A stretch of 33,939 nucleotides of DNA from Pedobacter sp. V48 (lineage in GTDB: Bacteria > Bacteroidota > Bacteroidia > Sphingobacteriales > Sphingobacteriaceae): assembly GCF_000523515.1 (NCBI RefSeq), contig NZ_AWRU01000033.1, forward strand, positions 209,350 through 243,288. Direction: 5' to 3'. Under the pieces are notes generated by a model. The model made no database searches. It worked only from the letters and a program-made list of their open reading frames with translations, and was not told the DNA's origin. The position numbers were made by a program, and so were the translations under genes. Shown here piece by piece: positions 23,590 to 28,034 of this stretch (positions are counted from its first letter, which is position 1; every line of letters starts with the position of its first letter).

Positions 23590-24204
23590 ATGTTTGATGT
23601 TTTAAGGGATAGTTTCACTCAGTTATTTTTACAAACGGGTTTATTGGAATGGCTAGGTGTTTTTACTGGTATACTATGTGTATGGCTTGCCGCCAAAAAC
23701 AATATATACAACTGGCCCATTGCGATAGTAAGTGTAGTCATCTATATTTTCATCTTCTTCGAATCAAAGCTTTACGCCGATATGGGTTTGCAGTTTTATT
23801 TTTTTGCGATGAATGTTTACGGATGGTACTTCTGGAGCAAGAACAGAAATAATCCAGAAGCATCACGACCAATTACCATCATTACCCAAAAAGAAATTAT
23901 GCTTTCTATTTTAGGCGTAATTGTTTTTACATTAATACTGGGTTTTGTGCTTAAAAAGAATACAGATGCCTCGTTCCCGTTTTTGGATAGCTTTTGTACT
24001 GCCTGTAGCTTAATAGCGCAAATATTCCTTGCAAGGAAGGTATTACAGAACTGGCTGATCTGGATTTTTGTTGATATCATATATGTTGGCATGTACATTT
24101 CAAAAGACCTGTACGCTACAGCGGTTATGTACGCATTGTATGTTTATATTGCCTCTGTAGGCTATTTAGATTGGAGGAGAACCTATCGTGAACACACCCA
24201 CTAA
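23590..24204 (+). CDS. pnuC: PnuC-family vitamin transporter (nicotinamide riboside, or thiamine as PnuT)
   Basis: Inner-membrane facilitator of the PnuC family: 204 residues, about seven membrane helices. The hallmark region is NWPIAIVSVVIYIFIFFESK then LYADMGLQFYFFAMNVYGWYFW (about 38-80), with a second internally similar half (LARKVLQNWLIWIFVDIIYVG near 145). Family members trap nicotinamide riboside (PnuC), thiamine (PnuT) or riboflavin by coupling to a cytoplasmic kinase. The overlapping next gene is a NadR-type nicotinamide-riboside-kinase domain, which favours nicotinamide riboside. The TPP riboswitch operon that follows leaves thiamine open. The gene name is therefore tentative. Confidence 0.88.
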   Translation: MFDVLRDSFTQLFLQTGLLEWLGVFTGILCVWLAAKNNIYNWPIAIVSVVIYIFIFFESKLYADMGLQFYFFAMNVYGWYFWSKNRNNPEASRPITIITQKEIMLSILGVIVFTLILGFVLKKNTDASFPFLDSFCTACSLIAQIFLARKVLQNWLIWIFVDIIYVGMYISKDLYATAVMYALYVYIASVGYLDWRRTYREHTH

Positions 24205-24715
24205 AAAGATAGCCATTGTTGGCCCGGAGAGTACCGGAAAATCAACCATTACCCAGCAGCTTGCAAAACACTTCAATACTTTATGGGTGCCTGAATACGC
24301 AAGATATTACTGTGCCGCATTGACGGAGCCATGCAATTTACAGGACGAGGTAAACATGTTTCATGGGCAATTGGCACTCGAAGACTCCATACTTGCCATC
24401 GCTGAAAAAGAGCTTATTTTCTGCGATACAACCTTTATCACTGTAAAAATATGGAGCGACGAAGTTTTTGGGGAAACTCCTAAGATTGTTCTTGATGCAC
24501 TCCCTAAATACAACTACGATTTATACTTGCTGATGGATATTGACCTGCCCTGGCAAGAAGACCCCCTTCGTGATTTTCCACACAAAAGAGAGCATTTTAT
24601 GCAGGTATGGCATCAGGAACTTAAAGCCTTGAATGCAGTATACGTTAAAGTTGGTGGCCAGGGAGAGGATAGATTAAATAACGCAATTACAGCTGTTCAA
24701 ACATTTTTACTCTGA
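24188..24715 (+). CDS. NadR-type ribosylnicotinamide kinase-like P-loop protein (AAA_28)
   Basis: A 175-residue P-loop kinase with Walker A GPESTGKST (12-20), then VPEYARYYC, a CDTTFITVKIWSDEVFG segment, YDLYLLMDIDLPWQEDPLRD and a C-terminal helix. This matches the kinase half of NadR, which phosphorylates nicotinamide riboside to NMN, without NadR's N-terminal adenylyltransferase or repressor domains. The start is a GTG at 24188, inside the end of pnuC (17-nt overlap); no ATG exists near it. Coupled with PnuC, it would trap the imported vitamin by phosphorylation. Activity on thiamine is an untested alternative. Confidence 0.87.
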   Translation: MNTPTKKIAIVGPESTGKSTITQQLAKHFNTLWVPEYARYYCAALTEPCNLQDEVNMFHGQLALEDSILAIAEKELIFCDTTFITVKIWSDEVFGETPKIVLDALPKYNYDLYLLMDIDLPWQEDPLRDFPHKREHFMQVWHQELKALNAVYVKVGGQGEDRLNNAITAVQTFLL

Positions 24716-24727
24716 TAAAAAAATTAA

Positions 24728-24735
24728 TACCTTTG
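24728..24735 (+). promoter_or_regulatory. -7 promoter box for the TPP riboswitch operon
   Basis: TACCTTTG, an exact TAnnTTTG match 12 nt after the kinase stop and about 11 nt before the aptamer's AAGGGG. It makes the riboswitch operon an independent transcript from pnuC. Confidence 0.6.
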
Positions 24736-24736
24736 T

Positions 24737-24856
24737 ACCATCAAAAAGGGGTGCCTTGTTTTGTAAAAAACACGAAAACAGGCTGAGAGCATACCCATTA
24801 TATCTATAAACAGATATATGCACCTGATCCGGATAATGCCGGCGGAGGGATTGGAG
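24737..24856 (+). ncRNA. TPP riboswitch (THI element) aptamer
   Basis: The conserved Thi-box segments occur in order: AAGGGGTGCC (24746-24755), GGCTGAGAGCATACCC (24781-24796) and ACCTGATCCGGATAATGCC (24822-24840), ending GGCGGAGGGATTGG. They match the pyrimidine-binding TGAGA and the pyrophosphate-binding CTGAT...GGATAAT regions of TPP aptamers. The variable P3 region holds a short hairpin (24757-24777) and a TATATCT/AGATATA stem lies at 24800-24818. CCATC (24738-24742) can pair with GATTGG (24849-24854) as P1. It should lower expression of the TonB receptor and ThiE-like gene when TPP is plentiful. Confidence 0.95.
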
Positions 24857-24858
24857 TT

Positions 24859-24909
24859 ATGGAGTTTAACTGGGCTGTAAGTACCCCTTACTTACAGTGG
24901 TTTAACTAA
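24859..24909 (+). CDS. Candidate 16-residue leader peptide after the TPP aptamer
   Basis: ATG at 24859, sixteen codons, TAA at 24907-24909; the product would be MEFNWAVSTPYLQWFN. A GGAG (24853-24856) sits 2 nt before the ATG and overlaps the 3' strand of P1. The frame spans the hairpin at 24875-24897, so translating ribosomes would unfold it. It is not in frame with the receptor gene. It may be chance; conservation would decide. Confidence 0.35.
   Translation: MEFNWAVSTPYLQWFN
24875..24897 (+). promoter_or_regulatory. Expression-platform hairpin of the TPP riboswitch
   Basis: A perfect 9-bp stem (CTGTAAGTA at 24875-24883, TACTTACAG at 24889-24897) with loop CCCCT. GTACCCCTT (24881-24889) can instead pair, with one G-U, to AAGGGGTGC (24746-24754), the 5' strand of aptamer P2. 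No T tract follows, so it is not a typical terminator. It ends 25 nt before the receptor start. Confidence 0.6.
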
Positions 24910-24922
24910 AAGAAACAATAAA

Positions 24923-27397
24923 GTGAAAAAATTAATGATCACAGCGCTTGCTGTGTTGCTATTGCCGGTGTTGGTAAAAGCGCAATTCTCAATTTCAGGT
25001 ACCGTATCCGAAAAATCAAATGCTACATTATCTGGCGCTACTATTAAGCTAAAAAATAAATCTGCCGGAACAACTGCCGATAAACAGGGAAAATACCAAT
25101 TAACCAATTTAAAAGCAGGCAGTTATACGTTATTAGTAAGCTACCTTGGCTACCAAACAATAGAAAAGACCATTACAATTAATGCCGATCAAACACTTGA
25201 TTTTGTATTAGTTCAATCTGCTTTCCTTGCCGACGAAGTTATTGTAAAAGCAACCAGAGCAAATGAAAAGTCTGCAACTACCTATAAAAACATTAGCAAA
25301 GCAGACATTGAACAAAACAACTTCGGACAGGATCTTCCTTTCATACTGAACAACACACCAGGCGTGGTTGTTACTTCAGATGCCGGTGCAGGTGTAGGAT
25401 ATACAGGTATTAGAATAAGAGGTAGTGATGCGAGCAGGATAAACGTTACTGTAAACGGAATCCCGTATAATGACAGTGAAAGCCAGGGTACATTCTGGGT
25501 GAACATGCCGGATTTTGCTTCTTCTGTCGACAATGTACAAATACAACGCGGCGTTGGTACCTCAACAAATGGAGCTGGCGCCTTTGGCGGAAGTTTAAAC
25601 ATCCAAACCTCATCAAGCTCGGAAACCCCTTACGCAGAAATAAACAATACTTACGGAAGCTATAACACTCTTAAAAATACTGTTAAAGTGGGTACCGGTC
25701 TTATAGATGGCAAATGGAGCTTTGACGGTCGTTTATCAAGAATTAAATCTGATGGGTTTATCGACCGTTCGGCCTCTAATCTTAAATCATACTTCTTATC
25801 AGGCGCATATCATGGAAAAACCGACATAGTACGTGTAAACGTATTTTCAGGAACGGAAGAAACTTACCAGGCATGGAATGGTGTTCCAGAAGCAAAACTT
25901 AGAGGAGACATTGAAGGCTTAAAGGAACATTACAACAATAACCTTGGTTATCTGTACAATACCAAAGCAGATTCTTTAAACCTGTTCAATTCGGACAACA
26001 GAAAGTACAATCAGTTCCTTTATAAGGATCAGAACGATAATTACAAACAAAACCATTATCAAGCTTTATACGCAAAACAGTTCAACGAACAGTTCTCGTT
26101 CAACGGGGCATTACACCTAACCCAGGGCGAAGGATATTTTGAAGAATATAAAAACAATCAGAAACTTAAAAACTATGGTTTGCCAAATGTTATGGCAGGT
26201 GGTACAACTATTGAAAGAACCCATCTTATTCGCCGTCGCTGGTTAGATAACAACTTTTATGGTCTTACTTATGCCTTTAATTACCAACCAGAGTCAAATT
26301 TAAATTTCACACTTGGTGGTGCTTATAACCAGTACAGAGGTAAACATTTTGGGCAAGTAATATGGGCTCAATATGCATCAACTTCAACCAACGACTACCA
26401 CTACTATGATGGCAAAGGAGATAAGGACGACTTCAATAGCTACTTCAAAGTAAATTATAATCCGGTAGCTCAGTTAAGCTTGTTCGCAGATTTACAGTAC
26501 AGAAATGTGAAATATGATATTTCAGGAACTGACAAGAATCGCAAAAGTTTAGATTACAATAACAACTACAATTTCTTTAATCCTAAAGTTGGGGCTACCT
26601 ATTTCTTAAACGAGTTAAGCAACTTTTACGCCTCATTCAGTGTTGCAAATAAAGAACCGAATCGTGACGATTTCACCAATTTAAAAGAGGGTCTGGCTGT
26701 TCCTAAACCAGAACGCTTAAATAATATAGAGGCAGGCTACCGTTTTAAAAACACTGATTTTAATGTTGGCCTAAATGCTTATGGCATGTTTTACAAAGAC
26801 CAGCTGATTTTTACAGGCGAAATCAACGAATATTCCGATGCTTACCGTCAAAATGTAGACAAAAGTTACAGGATTGGTCTGGAGCTAGACGCATCTTATA
26901 TTATCAGTTCTCGCTTTGCTGTTAATGCAAACGCAGCGTTCAGCAGAAATAAGATCAAGAATTATGTAGACTATGTATCAGAATATGATAATGATTTTAA
27001 CCTGATTAATGTACAGGCTACAAACTATGCTAATCCAGATATATCTTTCTCACCAAACTCAGTGATATTTGGAGAACTGGTTTACAAACCAGTAGCTGGC
27101 TTTGCCATTGCGTTACAAAGCAAATATGTAAGTAAGCAATACATGGACAACACTCAAAACGAGAGCCGTAAACTGGATGCTTATTGGGTAAATAATGCAA
27201 GGCTTGGTTACGACTTCAGTTTAAAAGGGATCAAAAACATAAACATAGGCCTGCTTGCCAATAACATTCTAAACAAAAAATACGAAAGTAATGGCTATAC
27301 CTACAGTTCAATTTACCCGTGGGGAACCACAACAGAGAACTTTTACTTCCCTCAGGCCGGAACTAATTTCTTACTTTCGCTAAATTTGAAATTTTAA
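24923..27397 (+). CDS. TonB-dependent outer-membrane receptor, probably for thiamine or a precursor
   Basis: An 824-residue outer-membrane transporter. A signal peptide (about 1-20, ending VKAQF) is followed by a CarboxypepD_reg-like domain (22-105, ISGTVSEKSNATLSGATIKL), a TonB-box-like ADEVIVKATRA, the plug (about 125-240, with IRIRGSDASRINVTVNGIPY) and a 22-strand-type barrel ending in the expected C-terminal Phe (LNLKF). The start is a GTG at 24923 (MKKLMITALAVLLLPVL); an ATG three codons later is possible. Control by a TPP riboswitch and the ThiE-like gene 4 bp downstream point to thiamine or a precursor as substrate, by inference. Confidence 0.93.
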   Translation: MKKLMITALAVLLLPVLVKAQFSISGTVSEKSNATLSGATIKLKNKSAGTTADKQGKYQLTNLKAGSYTLLVSYLGYQTIEKTITINADQTLDFVLVQSAFLADEVIVKATRANEKSATTYKNISKADIEQNNFGQDLPFILNNTPGVVVTSDAGAGVGYTGIRIRGSDASRINVTVNGIPYNDSESQGTFWVNMPDFASSVDNVQIQRGVGTSTNGAGAFGGSLNIQTSSSSETPYAEINNTYGSYNTLKNTVKVGTGLIDGKWSFDGRLSRIKSDGFIDRSASNLKSYFLSGAYHGKTDIVRVNVFSGTEETYQAWNGVPEAKLRGDIEGLKEHYNNNLGYLYNTKADSLNLFNSDNRKYNQFLYKDQNDNYKQNHYQALYAKQFNEQFSFNGALHLTQGEGYFEEYKNNQKLKNYGLPNVMAGGTTIERTHLIRRRWLDNNFYGLTYAFNYQPESNLNFTLGGAYNQYRGKHFGQVIWAQYASTSTNDYHYYDGKGDKDDFNSYFKVNYNPVAQLSLFADLQYRNVKYDISGTDKNRKSLDYNNNYNFFNPKVGATYFLNELSNFYASFSVANKEPNRDDFTNLKEGLAVPKPERLNNIEAGYRFKNTDFNVGLNAYGMFYKDQLIFTGEINEYSDAYRQNVDKSYRIGLELDASYIISSRFAVNANAAFSRNKIKNYVDYVSEYDNDFNLINVQATNYANPDISFSPNSVIFGELVYKPVAGFAIALQSKYVSKQYMDNTQNESRKLDAYWVNNARLGYDFSLKGIKNINIGLLANNILNKKYESNGYTYSSIYPWGTTTENFYFPQAGTNFLLSLNLKF

Positions 27398-27401
27398 TCC
27401 T

Positions 27402-28034
27402 ATGAAGAAGTTCATCGAAAGACTACATTTTATTACACACGATATTCATCAGTTAACCCATATCGAGCAGGCACAAATAGCTTGTGAGGCTGGAGCAAAG
27501 TGGATTCAATATCGATGTTTAACAAAAAATGATGATGAGCTTTTAGAAGATATCAATGTGATTGCTGAAATCTGTGACGATTGGGGGGCCACCTTAATCG
27601 TTACAGATCACATTCACCTTAATGGCAAAGCCGATATCCAAGGTTTCCATATTGAAGATATGGACGCTGATTTCATAAAATTAAGAGCACAATTAGGAGA
27701 AGCAGTAACCATCGGCGGTTCGTCAAACACAGTTGAAGGTTTAATCAGACTTGCCAAAGAGGGGGCAGACTATGCTGGCTTTGGTCCCTTCCGCGATACG
27801 ACAACCAAGCCCAACAATGCCCCTCATATTGGTATAGAAGGATATAAAAAAGCAATAACAACCCTAGATCAAAATGGCATTATCTTACCAGTTTTAGCCG
27901 TTGGAGGTGTTACTTCTGATGATATAGAAGCACTTATGGAAACTGGTGTTTTTGGAATAGCAGCATCAGCCGCAATTAATCAGGCTGAGGATATGAGAGA
28001 AGCATATCTTACATTTTATGACAAGATTATGTAA
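27402..28034 (+). CDS. Thiamine-phosphate synthase-like protein (ThiE/TenI family)
   Basis: A 210-residue TIM-barrel of the ThiE/TenI family. ThiE joins HMP-pyrophosphate and thiazole phosphate to thiamine phosphate. Seen: WIQYR (34-38), TDHIHL (68-73), GFHIEDMD (81-88), IGGSSNT (104-110), the pyrophosphate loop GPFRDTTTK (128-136) and VLAVGGVTSDDI (164-175). Differences from canonical ThiE: the QxRxK motif has Leu40 where the Lys belongs, the ND pair is Thr68-Asp69, and VHLGQ is FHIED. It may be a second, salvage-linked ThiE or a TenI-like paralogue. It lies 4 bp after the TonB receptor, under the same riboswitch. Confidence 0.85.
   Translation: MKKFIERLHFITHDIHQLTHIEQAQIACEAGAKWIQYRCLTKNDDELLEDINVIAEICDDWGATLIVTDHIHLNGKADIQGFHIEDMDADFIKLRAQLGEAVTIGGSSNTVEGLIRLAKEGADYAGFGPFRDTTTKPNNAPHIGIEGYKKAITTLDQNGIILPVLAVGGVTSDDIEALMETGVFGIAASAAINQAEDMREAYLTFYDKIM

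Follow-up and report, generated by a model that had tools for sequence, protein, structure and literature searches.

The stretch of DNA analysed here, referred to as the window, comprises 33,939 nucleotides (nt) of contig NZ_AWRU01000033.1 of Pedobacter sp. V48, and the features described below lie on its forward strand. It carries a thiamine pyrophosphate (TPP) riboswitch aptamer (24741-24854), followed by a TonB-dependent receptor gene with a GTG start (24923-27397), first in the putatively controlled operon, and by the gene of the thiamine phosphate synthase ThiE (27402-28034; PF02581 with E 3.1e-40, above cut-off, and NF000736 with E 2.1e-53, below its curated cut-off). This order of aptamer, receptor and thiE confirms the thiamine gene context. 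Between aptamer and receptor gene lies a hairpin whose loop can pair with the 5' strand of helix P2 of the aptamer. With a probability of roughly two in three, this leader is in our view a TPP riboswitch of variant type governing a TonB-dependent thiamine receptor and ThiE, with the hairpin that displays the anti-P2 segment R-CCCC-U as its expression platform. Comparison of leader sequences supports the aptamer, the hairpin, its constant loop, the specific complementarity and the covariation of the flanking bases; the receptor probably imports thiamine.

A TPP aptamer with an additional helix

In a permissive search, 24737-24867 matched the Rfam family RF00059 at a score of 36.1 bits and E 1.7e-5, short of the gathering cut-off of 54.3 bits. 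At the gathering threshold the whole window yielded zero matches, the TPP aptamer thus failing this annotation cut-off, which is not a structural definition, and none of 20 related leaders tried passed it. Hallmarks of TPP aptamers, in agreement with the Rfam consensus, are the T-loop CUGAGA, P2 with GGGU/ACCC and P4/P5 with CCUGAU...UAAUGCC...AGG. All of them were found in order in the window, which upholds the class assignment made in a preliminary description from sequence. According to the Rfam match and the list of pairs, the aptamer consists of a weak P1 (24741-24744/24851-24854), P2 (24749-24752/24793-24796), P3 with one bulge (24754-24762/24775-24782), the T-loop CTGAGA (24783-24788), P4 (24823-24825/24846-24848) and P5 (24829-24832/24839-24842). 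An additional helix of 7 base pairs with a 6-nt loop (24799-24818) occupies J2/4, between the P2 3' strand (ACCC) and P4 (CCTGATC).

The receptor was searched in 145 genomes of the genus, with 143 matches at E <= 1e-100, and upstream regions were taken from 90 of the 143 receptor-bearing genomes, the other 53 being left out. An aptamer pattern requiring GGGGTGCC parsed 89 of the 90 leaders, and L062 was read by hand. The J2/4 insert measures 22-99 nt in the 89 genus leaders and 20-97 nt in 44 leaders from other genera of the family. For 81 distinct inserts, pairing between the two native ends is far stronger than with ends swapped among species (-7.5 versus -2.6 kcal/mol; 0/2000 permutations). 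The additional helix between P2 and P4 is probably the reason why the Rfam cut-off misses the window aptamer, and standard annotation overlooks a clade of TPP aptamers that carry a J2/4 insertion. In many species (leaders L085, L095, L100, L103, L121 and others) the insert reaches 80-99 nt and its arms resemble repeats, for instance AAGGTGAAAGGTAAAAGG and CCCTAAACCTT; these long inserts may represent a small mobile or repeat element within the aptamer.

RF00059 TPP riboswitches, exemplified by those of Escherichia coli thiM and thiC, share with the window the T-loop CUGAGA, P2, the P4/P5 core, the thiamine gene context and the position in a 5' leader. The window differs from them by the J2/4 helix, which results in a four-way junction, and by its sub-cut-off Rfam score. 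One other TPP match is present in the Pedobacter sp. V48 genome (72 bits), upstream of a ThiS gene (PF02597, E 4.8e-11).

Upstream of the aptamer, TACCTTTG (24728-24735) fits the consensus TAnnTTTG of the Bacteroidota -7 promoter element as stated in PMC6847099 and PMC7366714, and TAnnTTTG is located 4-6 nt 5' of a conserved ATCA in 80/89 genus leaders. We therefore assign TACCTTTG as the -7 element of this phylum, which places the predicted transcription start at about A24740, the 5' edge of the aptamer. Directly 5' of the riboswitch, 23590-24715 on the same strand hold genes of a PnuC-family transporter and a NadR-like P-loop kinase; the substrate of the transporter may be thiamine or nicotinamide riboside.

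The downstream hairpin and the competing pairing

Two mutually exclusive pairings had been proposed for this leader, and both were recovered at positions exact to the base. AAGGGGTGC (24746-24754) is complementary over 9 nt, with one G-U pair, to GTACCCCTT (24881-24889), and a perfect hairpin (24875-24897) is formed by CTGTAAGTA-CCCCT-TACTTACAG, with 9 pairs and a 5-nt loop. AGGGGU (24747-24752), the P2 5' strand, is common to the aptamer and the anti-P2 pairing, while ACCCCU (24883-24888), comprising the hairpin loop and the closing pair, constitutes the anti-P2 segment. In the predicted folds a basal helix (24863-24907) of AGUUUAAC (24863-24870) and GUUUAACU (24900-24907), with one U-U mismatch, underlies the hairpin and stops 15 nt 5' of the start codon. 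By eye, GTTAA...TTAAC flanks the hairpin in several other genera.

A downstream C-loop hairpin was found in 84/89 parsed genus leaders, with the loop motif ACCCCT in 48, GCCCCT in 28, GCCCT in seven and ACCCCG in one, so that [AG]CCCCT occurs in 76/84. In 71 of 85 distinct genus leaders the motif is situated within a hairpin loop, compared to 3.8 in shuffles. The loop of three or four C is constant while the stem diverges, with 46 different 5' arms among 63 unique arm pairs. Native hairpins were more stable than those with swapped arms (-9.86 versus -6.48 kcal/mol, sd 0.31; 0/2000 permutations), although swap tests on the genus leaders, which are kin, overstate independence. Compensatory changes on both sides occurred at 9/9 stem pairs, each in 3 to 22 of 48 unique nine-pair stems, counts that are inflated by a register picked for maximum pairing. 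A kept loop motif on a diverging stem therefore implies more than chance. All 84 hairpin leaders have A or G directly 5' of GGGG, opposite the loop motif's U, whereas two of the six hairpin-less ones have T and C there, a small post hoc count uncorrected for kinship. A pattern rule places the start codon 28-39 nt beyond the C run in all 84.

The same complementarity could tether instead of melt: AGGGGU would pair with the loop in a long-range pseudoknot, leaving most of the stem in place. This is a possible arrangement of distinctly lower probability than an exchange of the two pairings. It would agree with the strong selection on the stem itself and with complementarity that in the genus does not extend past the loop and closing pairs, a run of at least eight contiguous Watson-Crick pairs being absent from every leader. 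Loops are mostly small, however, consisting of the C run alone in 22/48 unique stems and having one additional 3' base in 11, which is tight for five to six kissing pairs, and in other families the helix reaches well past any loop. In cobalamin riboswitches, the regulatory hairpin makes a kissing contact with the aptamer, and this contact forms with ligand. Both systems pair a regulatory hairpin loop with an aptamer strand, but the contact in the window would compete with the ligand-bound aptamer.

Complementarity to the P1/P2 5' strand beyond the genus

When six 14-nt aptamer segments were compared, the P1/P2 5' strand alone was complementary to the downstream leader, with mean z scores of -2.07 in the genus (76 leaders, 55 of them below -1.64), -1.37 in other genera (44) and -1.51 in other families (60 parsed class leaders); the remaining five segments ranged between -0.48 and +0.49. 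This conserved complementarity, together with the two pairings in the window, sustains the proposed competition between P2 and the downstream segment.

Covariation between these strands, suggested as a check of the proposal, was detected at the flanking bases across families, and covariation in the hairpin stem is strong. The core was uninformative, since the aptamer itself dictates GGGGTG and the parser also demanded GGGGTGCC. The flank test used one leader per family from 50 families in 20 draws with 1000 permutations each. The flank alone paired better with its own than with permuted downstream regions (-5.77 versus -4.97 kcal/mol, p 0 to 0.004), as did the flank plus GGGGTG (-13.45 versus -11.42 kcal/mol, p 0), with the P1 3' strand remaining in the downstream stretch of 21/103 class leaders (18 of L230-L251 plus L256, L328 and L333). 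After removal of the P1 3' strand and with a dinucleotide-shuffle control, the flank signal was weaker but still significant (z -0.40; p 0.011, t-test; p 0.023, Wilcoxon). Under the dinucleotide-shuffle control, the full strand gave z -1.45 (p ~1e-9), with 20/50 families below -1.64. Flanks vary by family and their partners vary along with them, as in TAAACAGGGG/CCCCTGTTTA, ACCTCGGGGTG/TATCCCGAGGT and CTTTAATACAGGGGTG/TATTCCTGTATTAAGG.

The 103 class leaders belong to mixed genes; 5/88 loci failed, and two were restored from an earlier parse, which also provided 18 of the 22 loci L230-L251. Helices of at least eight Watson-Crick pairs between GGGG plus flank and the downstream region were present in 20/103 of them versus 2.4 in shuffles, and helices of at least six pairs in 64/103 versus 25.8. 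The platform had been called unusually readable; it is not unusual, being widespread in the class. In the 44 leaders of other genera, which have aptamer and insert, an anti-P2-like motif occupies a hairpin loop in 27, compared to 1.6 in shuffles. In the family, the spacing of the anti-P2 segment varies mildly less to the start codon than to the aptamer (standard deviation 5.1 versus 8.8; 27/44 leaders), in a comparison whose start-codon rule was usable in only 18/84 genus leaders. Beyond the family, hairpin display fades while complementarity persists. One genus (L156, L157) lacks the hairpin and retains a short AACCCTGTT 3' of the aptamer.

Other strong TPP leaders of the genus (L001, L003-L032) combine ACTTTAGG with CCTAAAGT; 8/27 parsed leaders have at least eight pairs and 13/27 at most five, with 4/31 of these leaders and 5/20 second-site loci unparsed. 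Their genes are thiS in the V48 genome and a thiM-type gene behind L003, the rest being named by eye. The pnuT-like leaders of other genera (L210-L224; PF04973 checked for L217) combine ACTTATGG with CC[AG]TAAGT, and at least six pairs occur in 8/12 parsed ones. Judged from these sequences, the logic of capturing the 5' strand recurs, with or without a hairpin, in some of the thiS and pnuT-like leaders and is common across the class.

A sample of named genomes comprised at least 120 stretches, 69 of the 80 titled ones being usable (25 Bacteroidota, 42 other phyla, two unknown); the search pattern favours compact canonical aptamers and the sample is not random. Among the matches listed, the P1/P2 5' strand had a mean z of -1.59 in Bacteroidota (12/25 below -1.64) versus -0.31 in other phyla (3/42; p 8e-4). 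The other phyla instead displayed, among the matches listed, a weak signal of the P5/P4 3' strand (z -0.81, 10/42), and in this choice of strand the window platform departs from typical TPP riboswitches. Specific complementarity and flank covariation, which characterise a platform with a competing P1/P2 strand, were obtained as a group result, not per leader.

These data also bear on the idea that the hairpin is a separate element, such as a protein or small-RNA site or a determinant of mRNA stability, and that its CCCC matches P2 by accident. A binding site would likewise have a fixed loop on a varying stem, and the invariant P2 core prevents the core pairing from covarying. Flank covariation over 50 families and the segment specificity argue against such an accident, as do the recurrence of the strand logic in some thiS and pnuT-like leaders that lack this hairpin and the weaker signal in other phyla, and we consider a separate element improbable.

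Candidate control of translation initiation

Judged by predicted folds, the two pairings would be exchanged upon the predicted binding of TPP. Without TPP, the P2 5' strand would pair with the hairpin loop, and this would open or reshape the hairpin and keep the A-rich initiation region accessible. Binding of TPP would lock P2 into the aptamer; the hairpin and the basal helix, ending 15 nt before the start codon, would then form, reducing ribosome entry and hence receptor synthesis. The unconstrained fold from the predicted transcription start (-47.5 kcal/mol) contains P3, P4, P5, the insert helix, a P2-like helix and the hairpin. Folding the leader with and without constraints, as the preliminary description had advised, gave near-equal energies for the canonical P2-P5 fold (-46.4 kcal/mol) and the anti-P2 fold (-46.3 kcal/mol), a balance that TPP binding would tip towards aptamer and hairpin. 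Over 84 leaders the ensemble difference, aptamer minus anti-P2, had a median of -1.25 and ranged from -7.2 to +4.4.

Several results, besides the kinship and register effects mentioned above, weigh against this model. When P1 was forced as well, the aptamer fold rose to -43.8 kcal/mol, above the anti-P2 fold, which makes P1 look weak. Stability of the whole leader is ordinary (z -1.24; 21/200 shuffles equally good), and accessibility of the initiation region barely differs, being higher in the anti-P2 state in 44/84 leaders and lower in 28/84. The hairpin is missing from 6/90 genus leaders (L041, L045, L046, L053, L062, L069), which must work by other means; L067, counted among the 84, has a poor stem (-2.6 kcal/mol), seven leaders have CCC only and one has ACCCCG. 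RNAalifold on a plain MAFFT alignment of 77 leaders recovered P4/P5 only and missed the hairpin; because loops of CCCC and CCCCU shift the arms in the alignment, the arms were registered on the loop instead, and the hairpin then appears. Among the receptor leaders, whether of the genus or of other genera, none has at least eight contiguous Watson-Crick pairs, and 39/103 class leaders are without any helix of at least six pairs. In other families of the class the motif lies within a hairpin loop in only 19/103 leaders versus 6.6 in shuffles (maximum 13), and the spacing spread to the aptamer and to the start codon is the same (standard deviation 17.8 versus 18.2; 18/60 leaders).

Concerning the level of control, no GC-rich hairpin followed by a T tract was found in the leader before the gene, in line with the absence of a T tract noted earlier. 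An intrinsic terminator was rejected, as the sole terminator-like site called in 24600-25000 (24940-24955) lies inside the coding region. Likewise, the 15 nt before the GTG (24908-24922; AAAAGAAACAATAAA) contain, by eye, no GGAGG for Shine-Dalgarno sequestration. The window platform thus dispenses with both Shine-Dalgarno sequestration and terminator, unlike the RF00059 comparators. The pattern rule assigns a TTG start to 78 of the 84 hairpin leaders, GTG to four and ATG to two, a non-ATG start being the norm among these receptor orthologs.

The terminator-like site corresponds to a second hairpin, CACAGCGCUUGCUGUG (24940-24955, +18 to +33 of the receptor gene), whose arms vary among species. 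Region +9 to +48 of the receptor gene is more structured than synonymous recodings in 87 genus leaders (-7.8 versus -4.6 kcal/mol, with a mean z of -1.41, 67 leaders below -1 and one above +1) and in other genera (mean z -1.14; 20/35 below -1, 35 of 44 being usable). Sixteen other receptor-type genes of the V48 genome (of 29 loci) gave a mean z of -0.47, with six below -1.

A role had also been considered for the short frame MEFNWAVSTPYLQWFN (24859-24909); ribosomes translating it would unfold the hairpin and then restart at the receptor. Its ATG occurs in 88/89 genus leaders and, where the hairpin is missing, shares the reading frame of the receptor. In the 83 ATG-bearing hairpin leaders, however, the stop falls before the loop in 41, between loop and start codon in 33 and otherwise in nine, all three frames occur, and the same rule finds a leader ATG in only 7/44 leaders of other genera. 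Leader comparison thus indicates that the frame is not conserved as coding; with such variable stops and frames and an ATG poorly kept outside the genus, we rejected leader-peptide control as highly improbable. In the hairpin-less leaders, the ATG stands right 3' of the aptamer and adds eight or nine residues to the receptor in frame.

The lack of a T tract and of a conserved leader frame makes translation the most likely level of control, as the preliminary description had supposed. For Bacteroides thetaiotaomicron (B. theta), transcripts of transporter operons with TPP riboswitches are reported not to change significantly with thiamine, the mechanism being called 'uncertain' (PMC5613172). 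A survey of TPP riboswitches by RNA-seq counts 6/57 as transcriptionally active, none of those named in the available text stemming from the included Bacteroides sets (PMC12121620). Initiation in Flavobacterium johnsoniae is described as governed by structure at about -20 to +20 and by upstream adenines rather than by a Shine-Dalgarno sequence (PMC6847099), and Bacteroidota ribosomes are stated not to recognise Shine-Dalgarno sequences (PMC9976891). The B. theta and survey data, the F. johnsoniae findings and the absent T tract together favour translation control, with TPP as the probable off signal. The hairpin or the anti-P2 state could alternatively set Rho access or pausing, and the transcript-level shift of the B. 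theta biosynthesis operon (PMC5613172) and a preprint title in the reference list of PMC7366714, according to which Bacteroides TPP riboswitches regulate 'transcription or translation', point in this direction. We regard such transcription control as unlikely in view of the B. theta transporter operons, the missing T tract and the nearly constant spacing from hairpin to start codon in the genus.

The TPP riboswitches of B. theta (BT0653 thiS, BT2390 OMthi, BT2396 pnuT) precede the same gene families as those considered here, namely outer-membrane thiamine receptor, pnuT and thiS, and their expression platform is left undescribed in the available portions of PMC5613172. No description of the present platform was found in the open-licence PMC literature, which is not proof of absence; overlap with the 2019 Bacteroides TPP preprint, known by its reference entry, is possible.

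Taken together, it appears rather likely that Bacteroidota read TPP in a manner of their own, in which a downstream segment captures the P1/P2 5' strand and not the 3' side of the aptamer. In thiamine-receptor leaders a covarying hairpin, situated about 35 nt upstream of the start codon, would present this segment in its loop, giving ligand-dependent translation control without Shine-Dalgarno sequence or terminator, and many such aptamers, with a J2/4 helix (inserts up to 99 nt), would be missed by the Rfam cut-off. For a phylum in which the mechanism of TPP riboswitches is uncertain, this offers a concrete, conserved and mutable platform of thiamine uptake genes that predicts the bases to change. 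The conserved arrangement suggests how a phylum without the usual ribosome-binding signal may switch its vitamin B1 uptake genes.

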